64,000 nucleotides of DNA from Blastocatellia bacterium. GTDB taxonomy: Bacteria; Acidobacteriota; Blastocatellia; HR10; J050. Shown here in pieces: positions 68 to 60,494 of this stretch (position 1 is its first letter; the number at the start of each line of letters is the position of its first letter). Below the pieces are notes generated by a model. It was not told the DNA's origin and ran no database searches. It was given only the letters and a program-made list of their open reading frames with translations. A program made the position numbers and the translations under genes. The stretch spans positions 1-64,000 of the forward strand of contig JANWZE010000086.1 of the NCBI GenBank assembly GCA_025054955.1, read 5' to 3'.

Positions 68-172
68 TCGAGCGATTTTCAATTGCATTTAGCCTGGTTG
101 CCCTGCATCTTGTTGCGGGCTGATGCAGGCTGCAAGCGCGCCCTAGGGTAAACTCATTCACAAATCGCTCTA
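68..172 (+). repeat. MITE-like repeat R1, copy A
   Basis: This is one of five copies of a roughly 100-107 bp element bounded by inverted ends of the form TAGAGCGRTTT and AAAYCGCTCTA. Here the left end is degenerate (CGAGCGATTTT) and the right end is intact. Inside, CCTGCATC and GATGCAGG can form a hairpin arm. There is no open frame of note. The other copies are at 42510, 59522 (inverted), 59875 and 60097. Confidence 0.75.
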
Positions 173-14730: not shown

Positions 14731-15002
14731 GGCGCCGTCGGCGCTTGGCTCTGCCGGCGCACTCCAAGAGAGAGTCAGGAGCGTATGAGGATGCGTTTTG
14801 GAGTGCGGTGGCAAGCCCGCGGGGCGCGACGCCGCTTTGGTCTGGTGCGGCGTGTCAGGGCAGAAAGCGCCGTCGGCGCTTGGCTCTGCCGGCGCACTCA
14901 AGATAAAGTCAGGAATCGCCCATGAGCTCTGCGCTGACCACGAACGATGGAAATACAATTCTTTCGTGAGCTTCGTGTGTTTCGTGGGCTATTTTCAGAG
15001 GA
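14729..15002 (+). repeat. Dispersed repeat R4 with internal direct repeats
   Basis: A 33-34 bp unit (GCGCCGTCGGCGCTTGGCTC and following) occurs at 14729 and again at 14867. The second unit, with its downstream part up to TTTCGTGGGCTATTTTCAG at 15002, matches 49641-49774 over about 135 bp in the same orientation. A related part lies inverted at 29160-29300. The stretch 14512-15015 holds no gene; the open frames across it are repeat translations. Confidence 0.7.
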
Positions 15003-15015
15003 GCGATGGCCTCGA

Positions 15016-20756: not shown

Positions 20757-22802
20757 ATGGCACGATCTCGGCTCAGCACCATCGTTCAAGTGACAGGTAT
20801 TGCGCTGGCCTGTGTGTTCGTCTTTGGCGCAGACCTCGTCTGGTTAACTGATGAGGCGCCGGCGCAAGATCAAAATAGGATCATCATCGGGGCTCCGCTC
20901 AGTGGCGATGATTGGCCTATTGGCACGTCGCAATCCATTCGATGGGCAACGAATTTTTCGCCGTCGCATGGTTCGTTGTCTGATGTGAGAATAACGGTGG
21001 AATTACTGGGCGAGGCCGGTTCACAGGAACTGCTGCTGGATGATGGCGAGCAAGATTTGTCATTCGATCAAGGTGATCGGATTGTGGTGTTGCGGATCAC
21101 GCCGCCGAGCTATCCGGCGACGTTGGAAGCGATCCGCGTGCTTGTGCCGGCGATCACAGGGCAACCTGAACGTGAACGCGACATCACGCTCTACTATTTC
21201 GCCGACGAGCAAGGCAGCGGCTCGCCGCCATCGCCGCAACGATTTCTGACCCAGCCGGCGCGTGTCCGAACCAGCGGCAGCTTCACCGAGATTCGCGTTG
21301 AGCAAGCCACGCTGCCCACCTTACGGCAGGGCGATTTCTACATCGGTTATTTGATTGAGGCACCGACAGGTGGATTCGTTTATCCGATTGATCGCGATAA
21401 TACGCAGCGCCGCACCTTCATTGCGGACCGAGGTGGAGACCAGTTTCGTGATGCCACGTTTCCTGATCCCAATGGATTTCAGGTTTCCGGCAATCTGATG
21501 GTTCGCGCCCGCGTCAATGTATTGGCCACCCGCATTCCGTTGACGCCTCCCGGCGGCGTGCCCAACACGGGTGAATTCTGCTGGAAAGTCAGGTTGTCGG
21601 AAGGCCAGGAACCGATGATGGGATCGGAGCGGCGACCGGCTCGCATCAAAGTCTCGGCCACCATCAATGGGCAAGAAGTGGCCAGCAGCAACGAAGTGCA
21701 ATTTAGTATCAGCCGGGCATTGCAATCCATTCGTGTGACCTCACCATCGTCCGGTGAGATCTGGCGCGATCAAGAGGAACGGATCATTCGCTGGGATGCC
21801 GAACGGTTGGTCGGCGATGTGCGCATCGAATTATTGCGGTTTACCGATTCGGCCACGCAACCTTCAGAAGTCTTTTGTTTGTTCGATGGCGAAGACGTAT
21901 TGGCCAGGCAACGCTCCTGGCAGGTTGGGCAGCGCACGCCAGGATTCTACAAGATCAGAGTCTCCAGCAGTCTGGATCATCGCATATTCGATGACAGCGA
22001 CTTTTTCGTCATTGATCAACGCGCCAAACGGTCGCTCACCTGGGAAGATTGGGCCCCGTTGATGCCACAAGGCGGCGACTTGGCTCTCTCGGCTTCAAGC
22101 GCGGGCACGTGCGGCATTCACTTTGTGCCCGATGCCTCTGGCGCTTCGCTTCAAATTGTCGCGCCCAATGGCGGCGAAGTGTTTCGGCCAGGTGATCGCG
22201 TCAATATCGTGTGGGGTTCGCAAAAGCTTCGCGCGGGCACAAAGGTGCGCATTGTCTTGTTCGATTACACCAAGAATCCGGTCGTTCAAGAAACGCTCTT
22301 TAGTGGCGTGGAAAACACGGGCTTGATGGTCTGGACGGTGCCGTTCCGTTTGTCGGAAGCGGTCAAGGTCGGCGTCGTGAGTGAGTATAATCCCAATGTG
22401 GCGGATGTCAGTGATGGCACTTTCTCCATCGGCATTCCCAATCAAGGTCGGATTCGAATCCTGATGCCTGATGGCGGCGAAGAGTTTCAGGTCGGTCAGG
22501 AAACGCGCTTGGTCTGGATCTCTGAAGGTAATGATGTAGGCAGCCAGGTGCGCATTGATATTTCGTTCGACAACGGGATCAGTTGGCGCGTCTTGTGCAA
22601 CGACGTGCGCTGCACGCAGGCTGCCAATAATGGAGATTTTCGCTTAGGTCTCAACTTCCCACCGAGCGATTGTGTTAAAGTGCGTGTGGTCAGTCGCAGT
22701 CGTCCACAGATTTCAGATACGTCGAATTGTAGCTTCCGCATCGTCCCGCCGCGCCCGCCTGATCCCAATGCGCCTAAGTGCCCACCGAAACCGCAGCGAT
22801 AA
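20757..22802 (+). CDS. Secreted multidomain protein with Ig-like (Kre9/Knh1-type) repeats
   Basis: The product (681 residues) has a signal peptide (VTGIALACVFVFGADLVWL). It contains at least four beta-sandwich modules of the Ser-Thr-rich/Kre9-Knh1-like kind, with lines such as APNGGEVFRPGDRVNIVWGS and MPDGGEEFQVGQETRLVW. The same module type ends the metalloprotease at 33215. It ends with a Pro-rich, Cys-bearing tail. It is presumably an extracellular structural or binding protein. GGAGGAG precedes the ATG. The exact function is unknown. Confidence 0.8.
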   Translation: MARSRLSTIVQVTGIALACVFVFGADLVWLTDEAPAQDQNRIIIGAPLSGDDWPIGTSQSIRWATNFSPSHGSLSDVRITVELLGEAGSQELLLDDGEQDLSFDQGDRIVVLRITPPSYPATLEAIRVLVPAITGQPERERDITLYYFADEQGSGSPPSPQRFLTQPARVRTSGSFTEIRVEQATLPTLRQGDFYIGYLIEAPTGGFVYPIDRDNTQRRTFIADRGGDQFRDATFPDPNGFQVSGNLMVRARVNVLATRIPLTPPGGVPNTGEFCWKVRLSEGQEPMMGSERRPARIKVSATINGQEVASSNEVQFSISRALQSIRVTSPSSGEIWRDQEERIIRWDAERLVGDVRIELLRFTDSATQPSEVFCLFDGEDVLARQRSWQVGQRTPGFYKIRVSSSLDHRIFDDSDFFVIDQRAKRSLTWEDWAPLMPQGGDLALSASSAGTCGIHFVPDASGASLQIVAPNGGEVFRPGDRVNIVWGSQKLRAGTKVRIVLFDYTKNPVVQETLFSGVENTGLMVWTVPFRLSEAVKVGVVSEYNPNVADVSDGTFSIGIPNQGRIRILMPDGGEEFQVGQETRLVWISEGNDVGSQVRIDISFDNGISWRVLCNDVRCTQAANNGDFRLGLNFPPSDCVKVRVVSRSRPQISDTSNCSFRIVPPRPPDPNAPKCPPKPQR

Positions 22803-22884
22803 CCTGCTGAAGCGCGGGTTGCGCAGACTGAACTCCAGCGGCGGTCATTGCGGGAGCGAAGGACGCTGGCGATGATCTGATTGA

Positions 22885-22927
22885 AGCGCGGGTCGCGCGG
22901 ATTGACCGGATCAGTCCGACCCGCGCT
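22885..22927 (+). terminator. Hairpin downstream of the secreted Ig-like gene
   Basis: AGCGCGGGTCG (22885-22895) and CGACCCGCGCT (22917-22927) form a perfect 11-bp stem, 83 bp after the stop at 22802. It is not followed by a T-tract. A degenerate copy of the left arm lies at about 22809. Confidence 0.45.
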
Positions 22928-22938
22928 CTGTGCTCATT

Positions 22939-23080
22939 CTAAGTAACGTGACAAAAGTTCGTGGCGTTTTTCGAGTGCTGCGACGTGTCGCAGCTTTGAC
23001 CGGAAAGCGGTGACACGTCACCGCACGCCAAAACGTCCCGTCCCTGCAAAATCTCCCAGACCTTTTGTCCATCTCCTTAG
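22939..23080 (+). repeat. MITE-like repeat R2, copy 1 (142 bp)
   Basis: The element begins CTAAGTAACGTGACAAAAG and ends CTTTTGTCCATCTCCTTAG, giving imperfect terminal inverted repeats of about 19 bp. Inside are two perfect hairpins, GCTGCGAC/GTCGCAGC (22977-22994) and GCGGTGAC/GTCACCGC (23007-23024). A second copy of identical length is at 59736, and a left-end fragment is at 59626. No protein is encoded. Confidence 0.75.
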
Positions 23081-23088
23081 GGAGCCGT

Positions 23089-24276
23089 CTACTTACTCTG
23101 AAGCAGGGCCTGATAGAGACGCTCTGTTTCTGTCACCATCCGTTCTTGGTTGAATAGGGCTTCAACGCGGCGGCGACCGGCCTGCCCCATTATCTGCGCC
23201 TCAAGTGGATTGCGCGCGAGCCGGAGCATCGCGTTGGCGAGCGCCTGCGGCTCGTTCGGTGCAATGAGCAGTCCCGTCTCGCCATCTACAACGACTTCGG
23301 GGATGCCATCAACGGCGCTGGCAATGACCGGCTTGCCGGCAGCCATCGCTTCTAAGATGGAGAGCGGCAATCCTTCAAACCGCGAAGGCAAGACAAAAAC
23401 ATCGAATATACGAAGCAACGCCGGAACGTCCCGCCGATAGCCAGTGAAAATCACCTCCTCGGTCAGATGTAGCTCACGGGCTAGCCGCTGCAACGCCCCG
23501 CGCATCGGGCCATCGCCGACAATGACGCATTTGAGCGAAGCAAATTCCTTTCTAGCAATGGCGGCTGCTGCCAGCAAAACATCGTATGCTTTCTGAGCGG
23601 TGAGTCGTCCCACAGCGCCAATAACCATGTCCCCGGATGTCAAACCGAGCGCGCATCGCGTCTGTTGATCATCCACTCCTGCATCGAATCGTCGTAAATC
23701 AATGCCGTGATAAATCGTCACTGTGCGATGTGGATCAAGCTTGTAATGCTTCAAAGCCACTTGCCGGTTCAATTCTGATTCAACAATCGTCATGTCAATG
23801 TACTGTTGAGCGAGCAGCAACATGGCCTGTCCTTTCCAGGTAAAACGACGTGGATCGAGGGTCGGCAGATGATTGGTAGTCACGATCACAGGGGCGCCAG
23901 CCCATTTGGCAGCGATGATGGCGAATCGGCAGGAGTAGGGGTCAGGCATGTTGACGTGGAGAATATCTGTTGGGTGCCGGCGCAGATGTTGCATCAGGCT
24001 GATGAGCTGGCGAGAGTCAAACCGTCCGGCGCGGCTTGCCTTGCCCGTTTCAAGCACGTGAACCTGGATGCCAAGTTGAGCCATCCGGTCGAGCAACGGA
24101 GCCAACGCCTGCTCATCAACGCAGACGAATCGAATGTCGTACCGGCGTTGATCCAACCCACTGATGAGCAAGTAGAGGTATTCTTCGGCGCCGCCCAGCT
24201 CGTGCGCGTCGCTGAAGTAGGTAAGGCGAATGCGTTCGCGCTCAGTTGTTCGTTGTTGCTCCTGCGTCACGCTCAC
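23089..24276 (-). CDS. GT4-family glycosyltransferase
   Basis: This cytoplasmic GT-B transferase (about 395 residues) has the N-terminal line RIRLTYFSDAHELGGAEEYL, an acceptor-side domain, and the C-terminal GT4 site: GAVGRLTAQKAYDVLL, then PSRFEGLPLSILEAMAAGKP with paired Glu. It should transfer a sugar in polysaccharide or glycolipid synthesis. The GTG at 24276, with AAGG a few bases upstream, avoids the overlap given by an in-frame ATG at 24342. It is the last gene of the yceH operon. Confidence 0.9.
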   Translation of the reverse strand: MSVTQEQQRTTERERIRLTYFSDAHELGGAEEYLYLLISGLDQRRYDIRFVCVDEQALAPLLDRMAQLGIQVHVLETGKASRAGRFDSRQLISLMQHLRRHPTDILHVNMPDPYSCRFAIIAAKWAGAPVIVTTNHLPTLDPRRFTWKGQAMLLLAQQYIDMTIVESELNRQVALKHYKLDPHRTVTIYHGIDLRRFDAGVDDQQTRCALGLTSGDMVIGAVGRLTAQKAYDVLLAAAAIARKEFASLKCVIVGDGPMRGALQRLARELHLTEEVIFTGYRRDVPALLRIFDVFVLPSRFEGLPLSILEAMAAGKPVIASAVDGIPEVVVDGETGLLIAPNEPQALANAMLRLARNPLEAQIMGQAGRRRVEALFNQERMVTETERLYQALLQSK

Positions 24277-24289
24277 TACCTTATGATCG

Positions 24290-25195
24290 TTATGCTTTTC
24301 TGGCGTAGACTTCAATTCCCAAGCAGTAGTCAGCCGGCGCATGCAGCAGTGTGTGATAGAGTTGAGCTGGCATCAGGGCAATGCGGCGAGTGATTGAATA
24401 CATCCACCAAAAAGGCGAGCGTTTTGTATGAACATCGCCAAGCTGCTGGCGCAGCCGCTCCAGCCAGCCTTGCAGTGGTCCGGGCAGGTGAATATCCGGT
24501 GAAATGAACGTCAGCAACACAGGCTGAAAGCCGCATGCGCGAAGCAATCGCGTCAACGTTTCGGCGGTGAAAAAACTCAGATGCTCAGGCGGCTTAAATT
24601 CTCGCCATTGGTCGGGCTGCCGCCGGGCGCGAAGATGGCCGGTGTTGGGCGTAGAGATGGCCAGCAAACCGCCCGGTTTGAGCAGCCGATGCGCTTGTTG
24701 CAATTGACGGCGCGGGTCCACCACATGCTCAATATATTCCCACATGGTGATGACGTCGAAGAGGTCTGATTCAGCAGCAAAAGCGTCGAGGCTTGAGTGA
24801 ATCGGTTGCCCCAGCAACGCTTCAGCCGTCATGACGACGGCCGGAGCGATTTCCACGCCCTCAACGGACCAGCCGCGCGTCTGAGCCACATGCAAGAAAT
24901 AGCCGGCTGCGCAGCCTACATCGAGCAATCGGCCAGGCCGGCAGTAGGTCTCCAACAAGCTTAATCGAGCTGAGGCTTGCTGCTCGATCCAGGGTCGCTC
25001 GGCTGCGTAGTCAGCGTAGCCGTGCGCATCGGCGCTGTGAAAGTAATTAGGATTTTGGTAAATCGCCATCACGCATTCGGCGCTCGGTGGCGGATGGACG
25101 TAGATGAAGCCGCAGCGTTGGCAGCGGACGATGTCGTATCCATTCTTGTGCAACACGTGATGAGGTTGATGTTCCAGACAGACAGCGCAGCTCAT
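24290..25195 (-). CDS. SAM-dependent methyltransferase with N-terminal zinc ribbon
   Basis: The product (301 residues) starts with a Cys ribbon (CAVC, then CQRCGFIYVHPP). Motif I is LLDVGCAAGYFLHVA, then ITMWEYIEHVVDPRR and LKPGGLLAISTPN, the Methyltransf_23 order. The ATG at 25195 overlaps the stop of the upstream glycosyltransferase as ATGA, which decides the start and shows translational coupling. It shares its layout with the gene at 19516. It probably methylates the glycan built by its neighbours; this is inference. Confidence 0.9.
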   Translation of the reverse strand: MSCAVCLEHQPHHVLHKNGYDIVRCQRCGFIYVHPPPSAECVMAIYQNPNYFHSADAHGYADYAAERPWIEQQASARLSLLETYCRPGRLLDVGCAAGYFLHVAQTRGWSVEGVEIAPAVVMTAEALLGQPIHSSLDAFAAESDLFDVITMWEYIEHVVDPRRQLQQAHRLLKPGGLLAISTPNTGHLRARRQPDQWREFKPPEHLSFFTAETLTRLLRACGFQPVLLTFISPDIHLPGPLQGWLERLRQQLGDVHTKRSPFWWMYSITRRIALMPAQLYHTLLHAPADYCLGIEVYARKA

Positions 25196-42509: not shown

Positions 42510-42611
42510 TAGAGCGATTTTCAATTGCCTTAGCCGGGGAGCGCCTGCCTTGCGGGCTCATGCACGCTGGAAGTGCGCGCCCCAGGGTAGATTGATTCGC
42601 AAACCGCTCTA
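42510..42611 (+). repeat. MITE-like repeat R1, copy B
   Basis: This is an intact copy with ends TAGAGCGATTTT and CAAACCGCTCTA, flanked by C and G so that both ends read CTAG. It ends inside the last codons of the rluB gene on the other strand (stop at 42609). Confidence 0.78.
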
Positions 42612-43358
42612 GTCAGGCTTTCTGGTGGCAGAGCCTGAATAGTGAAAGAATCGCCGAACTTCTGCGCTGGACAGATGACGATACTGGCCCGGCTTCAATT
42701 TGCCGATGGTTAAGAACCCAATGGCCACGCGCTTGAGCTTGACAACCGAGTGGCCGATTTTGTCGAACATCAAGCGGATTTGGTGATGGCGGCCTTCAAT
42801 GATCGTGACTTCGTACCATGCGTTCGAGGCCGTTTGTCTGAGCTCACGGATCGTTGCCGGGGCCGTGCGCCGTCCTTCGATGACGACGCCGGAGCGCAGC
42901 AAGTTGAGTTGTTTCTCGCCGGGTATGCCTTTGACCTTCACATGATAGGTTTTAGGAATTTGGTTTTTGGCTGAAGCGATCAAGTTAGCAAATTCACCGT
43001 CATTCGTCAGCAACAGCAGCCCCTCCGAGTTGAAGTCCAATCGTCCCACCGGGTAGACCTTCGTTTTGGGGTCTGGCAGCAAGTCGGTCACTAACGGTCG
43101 TCGGGCTGGGTCTGACAGGCTCGATAAGTATCCGGCTGGCTTGTTCAGTAGGATGTAGACCTTTTGCCGCGCGGCCAGCCGGGGATTGATCAGCTTGCCG
43201 CTGACTTTGATGTGATCGCGTTCAGGGTCAGCCTTCGTGCCTAACGCAGTGACTACCTGACCGTTGACCGTGACCTGTCCCGCCAAGATGAGTTCTTCAG
43301 CCTTGCGCCGCGAGGCGATGCCCGCCTGCGCGATGATCTTTTGCAAACGCTCTTGCAT
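42609..43358 (-). CDS. rluB: Pseudouridine synthase RluB/RsuA family
   Basis: The product (249 residues) has an N-terminal S4 RNA-binding domain (QERLQKIIAQAGIASRRKAE) and a pseudouridine synthase domain with LLNKPAGYLSSL and the catalytic GRLDFNSEG. It should make a pseudouridine in 23S rRNA. It abuts scpB. The last three bases of the gene lie within an R1 element end, which makes the C-terminus partly repeat-derived. Confidence 0.9.
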   Translation of the reverse strand: MQERLQKIIAQAGIASRRKAEELILAGQVTVNGQVVTALGTKADPERDHIKVSGKLINPRLAARQKVYILLNKPAGYLSSLSDPARRPLVTDLLPDPKTKVYPVGRLDFNSEGLLLLTNDGEFANLIASAKNQIPKTYHVKVKGIPGEKQLNLLRSGVVIEGRRTAPATIRELRQTASNAWYEVTIIEGRHHQIRLMFDKIGHSVVKLKRVAIGFLTIGKLKPGQYRHLSSAEVRRFFHYSGSATRKPD

Positions 43359-49616: not shown

Positions 49617-49640
49617 CCACTTTTTCTGACGAGAAAGCGC

Positions 49641-49774
49641 CGTCGCCGCTTCGCTCTGCCGGCGCACTCCAAGATAAAGTCGGGAATCGCCCATCTGCTC
49701 CGCGCTCACCAGGAACGATGAAAATACAATTCTTTCGTGAGGTTCGTGTGTTTCGTGGGCGATTTTTAGAGGAG
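49641..49774 (+). repeat. Dispersed repeat R4, second copy
   Basis: It matches 14864-15002 in the same orientation, from AAAGCGCCGTCG through AATACAATTCTTTCGTGAG to TTTCGTGGGC. The stretch 49534-50206 holds this repeat, a minisatellite and no gene that I can support. Confidence 0.7.
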
Positions 49775-59521: not shown

Positions 59522-59628
59522 TAGAGCGATTTGTGAATGAGTTTACCCTAGGGCGCGCGCTCGCAGCGTGCGTCAGCCCGCAACAAGATGCGGGGCAACC
59601 AGGCTAAATGCAATTGAAAATCGCTCTA
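59522..59628 (-). repeat. MITE-like repeat R1, copy C (inverted)
   Basis: It is the same element as the other R1 copies but in opposite orientation, with intact ends TAGAGCGATTTG and AAATCGCTCTA. Its right end shares CTA with the left-end fragment of R2 that follows. The gene-free region 59396-60970 contains three R1 copies, one full and one partial R2, and R6. Confidence 0.78.
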
Positions 59629-59670
59629 CGTAACGTGACAAAAGTTGGTGGCGTTATTGGAGTGCTGCGG
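59626..59670 (+). repeat. MITE-like repeat R2, left-end fragment
   Basis: The text CTACGTAACGTGACAAAAGT and the following GGTGGCG line matches the first 45 bp of R2 copies and then diverges. The right end is missing. Confidence 0.6.
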
Positions 59671-59735: not shown

Positions 59736-59877
59736 CTAAGTAACTTGACAAAAGTTAGTGGCGTTTTTGGAGTGCTGCGACGTGTCGCAGCTTTCGCCGG
59801 AAAGCGGTGACACCTCACCGCACGCCAAAACGTCCCGTCCCCCCAAAATGTCCCAGAGCGTTTGTCCACCTACTTAG
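59736..59877 (+). repeat. MITE-like repeat R2, copy 2 (142 bp)
   Basis: It has the same 142-bp length as the copy at 22939, and the same ends CTAAGTAACTTGACAAAAG and a TTTGTCCACCTACTTAG right end. The first inner hairpin is intact and the second has one mismatch. The last TAG is shared with the start of R1 copy D. Confidence 0.75.
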
Positions 59878-59978
59878 AGCGATTTTCAGTTGCGTTTAGC
59901 TGGGGCCCCACATCTTGCGGACTAATGCATGTTGGAACCGTGCGTTCCCCAGGGTAAACTCATTCACAAACCGCTCTA
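59875..59978 (+). repeat. MITE-like repeat R1, copy D
   Basis: The ends are TAGAGCGATTTT and CAAACCGCTCTA. The inner text is more diverged than in copies B and E. It directly follows, and overlaps by 3 bp, R2 copy 2. Confidence 0.78.
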
Positions 59979-60002: not shown

Positions 60003-60096
60003 CGGATGCGGCGGATGCGGCGGATTTTCACGGATTGATCCGCGTTGATCAGCCGAATCCGTGTCATCCATGTTCCGTGAGCTTCTTATTAACTTC
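60003..60096 (+). repeat. Dispersed repeat R6, copy 2
   Basis: It begins with three GCGGATGCG-type units and then matches window positions 1-67. R1 copy E follows directly, as R1 copy A does at the window start. Confidence 0.7.
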
Positions 60097-60196
60097 TAGC
60101 GATCTTCCATTGCCTTTACCCGGGCAGCGCCGGCCTGCGGGCTCATGCACGCTGCAAGTGCGCGCCCCAGGGTAGATTGATTCGCAAACCGCTCTA
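60097..60196 (+). repeat. MITE-like repeat R1, copy E
   Basis: Its left end is degenerate (TAGCGATCTT) and the right end intact (CAAACCGCTCTA). The inner text from CGGGCTCATGCACGCTG onward is nearly identical to copy B at 42560-42611. Confidence 0.75.
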
Positions 60197-60494
60197 GTGT
60201 GGCTCGTACAGCGCGGTCGAAACAGTTGAGTGGGCTAATCCAATTTCGTGATAGATGGGGTGAGCCTACCCTTCCATGCGCAAGTGGAGGCGGTTGTTTT
60301 GTTGTTCTGAGACGTGCGCGTTTGTGGCCAGTGATCGGAGAGCTTGAACAAGCCAGTGAAAGAACGGGCGGCGCTGTTGAAGGCGTGAGGAATTGAGGAT
60401 GATAGCTCCGCGAGGTTGCACGTCTGGCTACCTTCTGGTGGACGGCTACTGCTGCCGCCGCCGAAGTAAATCCCGAGTGAATATCTCAGGTTGT

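Follow-up and report, generated by a model that had tools for sequence, protein, structure and literature searches.

The prevailing view is that REP and REPIN populations rely on a RAYT, a REP-associated transposase, encoded in the same genome. The Correia elements of Neisseria and the RUP elements of pneumococcus are described as MITEs derived from insertion sequences of the IS630 family (PMC2817692). We analyzed a stretch of 64,000 nucleotides from a Blastocatellia bacterium (the window), in which a short repeat, R2, combines features of both kinds. As R2 has ends of the IS630 type and encloses a separate REP module with its own RAYT clade, we interpret it, with a probability of about 0.85, as a non-autonomous IS630-family (Tc1/mariner-type) MITE with a captured REPIN of the RAYT/TnpA-REP kind. 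The first-pass annotation had called R2 MITE-like and transposable, which is borne out and can be made more precise as an IS630-family MITE with a 2-bp target duplication.

Copies of R2 in the window

The window holds two 142-bp copies and a left-end fragment of R2, as first annotated (Table 1). Copies A and B are 91% identical without gaps, and the fragment matches the left 44 bp of R2 at 91%. Two ORFs, at 20757-22802 and 23089-24342, converge on copy A. The ends of R2 had been described as complementary over about 19 bp; they are complementary, but this length is slightly generous, with 14 of 19 bp pairing in copy A and 15 of 19 in copy B (counted by eye). Both internal hairpins, described as perfect, are so in copy A, whereas the second hairpin of copy B has one broken pair.

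Table 1. Coordinates of R2, its parts, and the adjoining R1 elements in the window
Feature	Position	Strand	Remark
R2 copy A, including CTA..TAG target letters	22939-23080	+	mobile core 22942-23077
Left 2-bp target duplication (TA), copy A	22940-22941	none
Right 2-bp target duplication (TA), copy A	23078-23079	none
Left terminal inverted repeat AGTAACGTGACAAAAG, copy A	22942-22957	+	same end type bounds IS630 elements L084 and L086
Right terminal inverted repeat, copy A	23062-23077	-	reverse complement AGGAGATGGACAAAAG
REPIN cargo, copy A	22969-23031	+	two inverted REP hairpins
First REP hairpin, copy A	22977-22994	+	GCTGCGAC-GT-GTCGCAGC
Second REP hairpin, copy A	23007-23024	-	minus strand reads GCGGTGAC-GT-GTCACCGC
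R2 copy B	59736-59877	+	core 59739-59874; inserted at terminal CTAG of R1 element
First REP hairpin, copy B	59774-59791	+
Second REP hairpin, copy B	59804-59821	-	one pair broken
Third R2 copy, left-end fragment only	59626-59669	+	abuts R1 element end
R1 element (TIR GAGCGATTT)	59524-59626	+	joined on the right to the truncated R2 copy
R1 element	59877-59976	-	copy B inserted at its end
R1 places in the window	70-170, 42510-42619, 59524-59626, 59877-59976, 60095-60204

Ends and target-site duplication

The consensus ends of R2 are AGTAACGTGACAAAAGTTC and AGTAGGTGGACAAAAGTTC. The core runs from AGTAACGTGACAAAAGTTC to CTACT, and the letters adjacent to it are direct 2-bp repeats, not inverted ones. 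The letters CTA and TAG, previously taken as the ends of the element, are therefore mostly target site, namely a C, the 2-bp duplication and a G. We considered the outer C and G as part of R2 and rejected this, since R2 copies inserted in R1 ends share this letter with R1, whose final letter it is, and since the flanking letters vary in the related elements L084 to L088.

For the target-site tally, 60 copies were laid out with their flanks, 52 of them two-ended. An identical 2-bp duplication flanks 46 of the 52, and TA/TA flanks 36; these counts include two copies (L018 and L032 4531-4684) that were shifted by one base at the right end after inspection, without which they are 44/52 and 35. When the comparison was moved 1 to 7 bases outward as a register control, identity dropped to only 0 to 7 of 52. 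The outer letters are C..G in 44 of the 46 copies with identical duplications, so that the site is usually CTAG, a tetranucleotide about six-fold depleted in the window (40 sites, where its base composition would give 243). A 1991 title by Tenzen and Ohtsubo reportedly gives a preference of IS630 for 5'-CTAG-3'.

Identical duplications other than TA occur in 10 of the 52 copies (AA and TC three times each, and CA, TT, AC and AT), all between C and G. Sixteen copies have flanks other than TA/TA, and in 10 of them the two dinucleotides are still identical, which at a chance of 1/16 each gives P of about 5e-9, and mutation after insertion cannot easily yield the same change at both ends. Decay looks like the four copies changed at one end only (TG/TA, GA/TA and AA/TA twice), while the flanks of two more (L013 and L038) fit neither duplication nor one-end decay. 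Non-TA duplications are in excess in the copies of 152 to 156 bp (4/7 against 6/45, Fisher p 0.02), a post hoc comparison on which we do not rely.

Copy number and placement in the genome

The genome containing the window (G000) is a draft of 4.69 Mb in 152 contigs. BLAST gave at least 42 R2 matches in it, with 40 of 74 candidates scored, and the R2 end pattern was counted 49+41 times, compared with 4+1 in the reversed control, which is far beyond chance. The check proposed by the first-pass annotation, a genome-wide search with the 142-bp sequence, thus revealed dozens of additional copies with conserved ends. Trained on 48 copies, a covariance model matched at least 64 rows at 61 bits or more and at least 50 at 145 bits or more, a lower bound with 150 of 1495 candidates scored and hits at the same place on the opposite strand left out. 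Of the 64 rows, two belong to a single 284-bp element, each covering half of it, the row at C71 is half a copy, and the row at C118:760 shares the core but is a different element. Altogether the genome has at least about 62 R2-derived places, of which at least about 50 approach full length, and the mean divergence between copies is 11%.

Placement is mostly intergenic: ORFs of at least 150 aa enclose only 6 of 60 copies, compared with 714 of 1200 random windows. R2 therefore shows the traits of an IS630-family MITE, as it lacks a transposase gene, has a high copy number, is mostly intergenic and carries the 2-bp target duplication. Across the genome contig collection, the TIR pattern of R2 had a single match, in a Shimia MAG, which has no R2-like right end within 320 bases and was taken as chance. 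No R2 with a REPIN was found in the other genomes searched, so the capture event itself is unseen.

Folding and covariation

R2 folds more strongly than its shuffles (z from -4.9 to -6.4 for four R2 strands), and its lowest-energy fold is not the two small hairpins of the original description but a single long stem, where one REP pairs with the other. This folding, the mostly intergenic placement and a lower rate of change in the stems (4.4%) than in most other columns (7.4%) would be compatible with a structured RNA under selection, either an sRNA or an mRNA-stability element, and the first-pass annotation had left room for an RNA-coding element. We judge this very improbable. Folding is stronger still in a REP-free deletion MITE from another genome (L087; z -10.6) and is to be expected of any inverted-repeat element, and in the 48 copies the stems carry 65 one-sided changes (44 broken pairs and 21 G-U) against one two-sided change. 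The hairpin covariation proposed as a check is therefore lacking, and the RNAalifold consensus is weak, with compensation at 0 of 19 pairs. Loops change at 8.9%, the left TIR at 4.3% and the right TIR at 7.9%; we rejected selection on the stems, as their rate equals that of the left TIR and the remaining columns include subfamily differences. No Rfam family matched R2 at the gathering threshold, and within 22600-23400 there was no terminator-like site and a single promoter-like site, which lies outside R2. There is no sign of a kept RNA structure in R2. The first-pass annotation had named, as the combination that would count against it, uncompensated hairpin changes and a lack of conserved ends; the hairpins are indeed uncompensated, yet the ends are conserved in dozens of copies.

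The REPIN cargo and its RAYT clade

The original description missed that the hairpin pair is independent of R2 as a REP/REPIN module. The REP unit reads TTTGGAGTGC-hairpin-GCTTT, with a GGAGTGC head and a GCTTT tail around an 8-bp stem, and it often occurs in inverted pairs (L065 and L072), that is, as inverted palindromes with a fixed head like those of REPINs. Such pairs also stand alone outside R2, at these two loci and, in G000, at L075 and L076, and the REPIN is found again in the same genome inside another inverted-repeat element, R3 (L077 and L079). In a search of 20 genomes, 7 had matches: G000 contains full copies, and six relatives of the class match the hairpins only, in pieces of about 30 to 60 bp.

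Near the RAYT loci of G000 and of six class relatives, no REP of the GGAG type was found. This apparent negative was overturned by a divergent RAYT in another genome (G016:C86) and a search of its clade. There, inverted REPs flank a protein of 178 aa (L127) with NHYH and YVHQNP motifs, a motif type listed for TnpA-REP in PMC6006769. This REP type is present at 9 of the 15 loci that encode relatives of this RAYT (identity of about 50% or higher), with 26 REPs in 49.7 kb, compared with 0 of 45 other RAYT loci in 147 kb and 0 in the reversed-sequence control. The same REP type thus flanks a RAYT gene, as expected of a REPIN. In the class genomes (L128 to L142), GGAG-headed REPs flank one RAYT clade; the stem varies between genomes and the head and tail are nearly constant. 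The canonical GT[AG]G tetranucleotide is absent, the head being GGAG followed by T, and the string "ggag" occurs 0 times in the available main texts of PMC3733652 and PMC6006769.

In G000, the search for a cognate RAYT gave only a 31% partial match, so a resident RAYT of this clade was not found, and the two Y1 loci of this genome (L073 and L074) have no such REP nearby. The second of these (G000:C75:22380-22652) is a Y1 transposase-like domain in an open frame of 1324 aa, a possible fusion; the RAYT search found frames of similar length in some class genomes.

The RAYT type of the core could suggest that R2 is a BIME or REPIN variant moved whole by RAYT, with the outer arms as mere conserved flanks. 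We regard this as very unlikely, since R2 has 19-bp inverted ends and a precise 2-bp duplication, neither of which is expected from the single-strand HUH mechanism. The failure to find the cognate clade in G000 argues against it as well, as does the scarcity of REPs outside R2: among 61 REP-pattern hits in the genome, only about half a dozen lie off R2 or R2-derived places, by our own comparison with the covariance places.

Probable IS630 parent elements in other genomes

A class-wide search with the R2 ends gave matches in 13 of 162 genomes, G000 included, and places from 10 of the other 12 were inspected. Two genomes, G032 (L084) and G014 (L086), have two R2-type ends 1154 bp apart with TA on both sides, enclosing two ORFs, of which the first has HTH_23/HTH_29/HTH_33 domains and the other DDE_3 (PF13358, 8.6e-9 for L084 and 1.9e-12 for L086). 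Both elements carry AGTA-N4-GACAAAAGTTC at each end, and R2 thus shares terminal inverted repeats with autonomous IS630 elements. Beyond GACAAAAGTTC, the subterminal sequence of R2 is unlike that of the sequenced IS630 parents. G014 also contains two TA-flanked elements of 144 bp (L087 and L088) built of both ends of its IS, and this pair of IS and derivative is the IS-to-MITE relation expected of the IS630 family. A TA-flanked element of 161 bp is found in G151, and single R2-type ends that continue like the IS in G074, G135 and G139; the matches in G041, G052, G089 and G161 look like chance.

The DDE ORF of the parent IS is present in 16 of the 162 class genomes and, in this search, absent from G000, its family and its order; nor was an autonomous element with R2 ends found in the 152-contig draft of G000. 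For this reason, the parent is deduced from elements in other families of this class. A DDE_3 profile search of G000 likewise had no match. Together with the ten identical non-TA duplications, which are unusual for IS630 as a family with nearly strict TA, this leaves some room for a MITE of another DDE family with a 2-bp duplication (IS5/IS427-like or IS30-like), whose ends would resemble those of IS630 by chance or convergence. IS427- and IS30-like elements make duplications of 2 to 3 bp. We nevertheless consider such an origin improbable, as ends of the form AGTA-N4-GACAAAAGTTC with flanking TA bound the 1154-bp DDE_3 elements, and as ISY100, a member of IS630, yielded the AA/TT type of duplication twice among 39 sequenced products (PMC2170065).

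R2 would then be mobilised as an IS630-family MITE. An IS630-type DDE transposase acting in trans would bind the ends of about 19 bp, cut R2 out and paste it into C-TA-G sites with duplication of 2 bp, and the REPIN, captured into the MITE before amplification, would be multiplied as passive cargo. The shared ends point to that IS630 group as the probable source of the enzyme, and R2 is presumably immobile at present.

R1, R3 and hybrid elements

R1 is a MITE-like repeat of about 100 bp, usually flanked by TA. R2 often lies at the end of an R1 element, by hand count at 13 places, among them 59626 and 59877 in the window, and R1 ends hold 5 of the 40 CTAG sites of the window, so that they form a ready supply of targets. 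R3 (AATGGCATTAAGTTA...) is rarer, its left-arm pattern occurring at only four places in the genome, and also contains a REPIN (L077, at G000:C152:153877-154014, L079, L052 and L059).

Three elements (L053, L060 and L063) consist of the R2 left arm and the REPIN followed by other sequence that ends like R1, and L052 has two REPINs between R2 ends. The shared REPIN may have been the recombination point of these three hybrids. A bolder reading, which we judge less likely than not as a whole, is that R2 was moved by an IS630-type transposase aimed at C-N-N-G instead of TA alone, and that the REPIN hitch-hiked in a DDE-type MITE, its repeated core perhaps serving as a recombination hinge, so that the REP population survived the loss of its RAYT.

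Elsewhere in the window, at 14732-15003 and 49637-49774, there are repeats with a GCACTCC-tagged palindromic stretch (D6 and D8). One GCACTCC-tagged repeat copy adjoins a match to the group II intron RF00029 (49443-49533).

Comparison with known systems

The identity of R2 as a chimeric MITE is the part of this analysis of which we are confident. In this genome a REPIN occurs for the most part within a cut-and-paste transposon that belongs to a different class, and no matching RAYT was found. If the hitch-hiking reading is true, REPs may spread and persist by means of a second, unrelated transposase. The C-NN-G duplications offer a natural test of how strict TA is for enzymes of the IS630/Tc1/mariner type, and the GGAG-headed REP and its RAYT clade widen the REP catalogue beyond GT[AG]G heads. 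Among the results of literature searches for REPIN, REP or RAYT with MITE or IS630, to which most subscription papers did not belong, there was no report of a REPIN in an IS630 MITE.

Like the Correia and RUP elements, R2 is short and non-coding, with inverted ends, a duplication that is TA in most copies, and related IS630 elements, in its case in the same class. It differs from them in its REPIN, a strong preference for CTAG, the ten non-TA duplications and the lack of a parent IS found in its genome. In target choice it resembles IS630/ISY100 in that most of its duplications are TA; ISY100 has AA/TT in 2 of 39 products (PMC2170065), whereas about one two-ended R2 copy in five (10/52) is non-TA, always within C..G.

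The cargo is comparable to the REPINs and BIMEs mobilised by RAYT in the accounts of PMC3116915 and PMC6006769, with two inverted REPs, a heterodimer, one long hairpin and a RAYT clade with NHYH and YVHQNP. In contrast to these, it has a GGAG-T head in place of GT[AG]G and occurs mostly within a DDE-type MITE, and no RAYT of its own was found in the genome.

Two further systems combine REPs with other repeats. In Anabaena variabilis, GTAG-15 dimers are likewise REP dimers within long, regular palindromes; the section of PMC3733652 that treats them states that empty palindromes were not found, assigns the palindromes to no transposon family and gives no target duplication. QMITE2 of Coxiella burnetii is, like R2, a MITE containing a REP, there of the GTAG type; as described in PMC5896051, it has duplications of 7 to 11 bp and its REP is the target of IS1111, whereas the duplications of R2 are 2 bp long and its REPs form an inverted pair.
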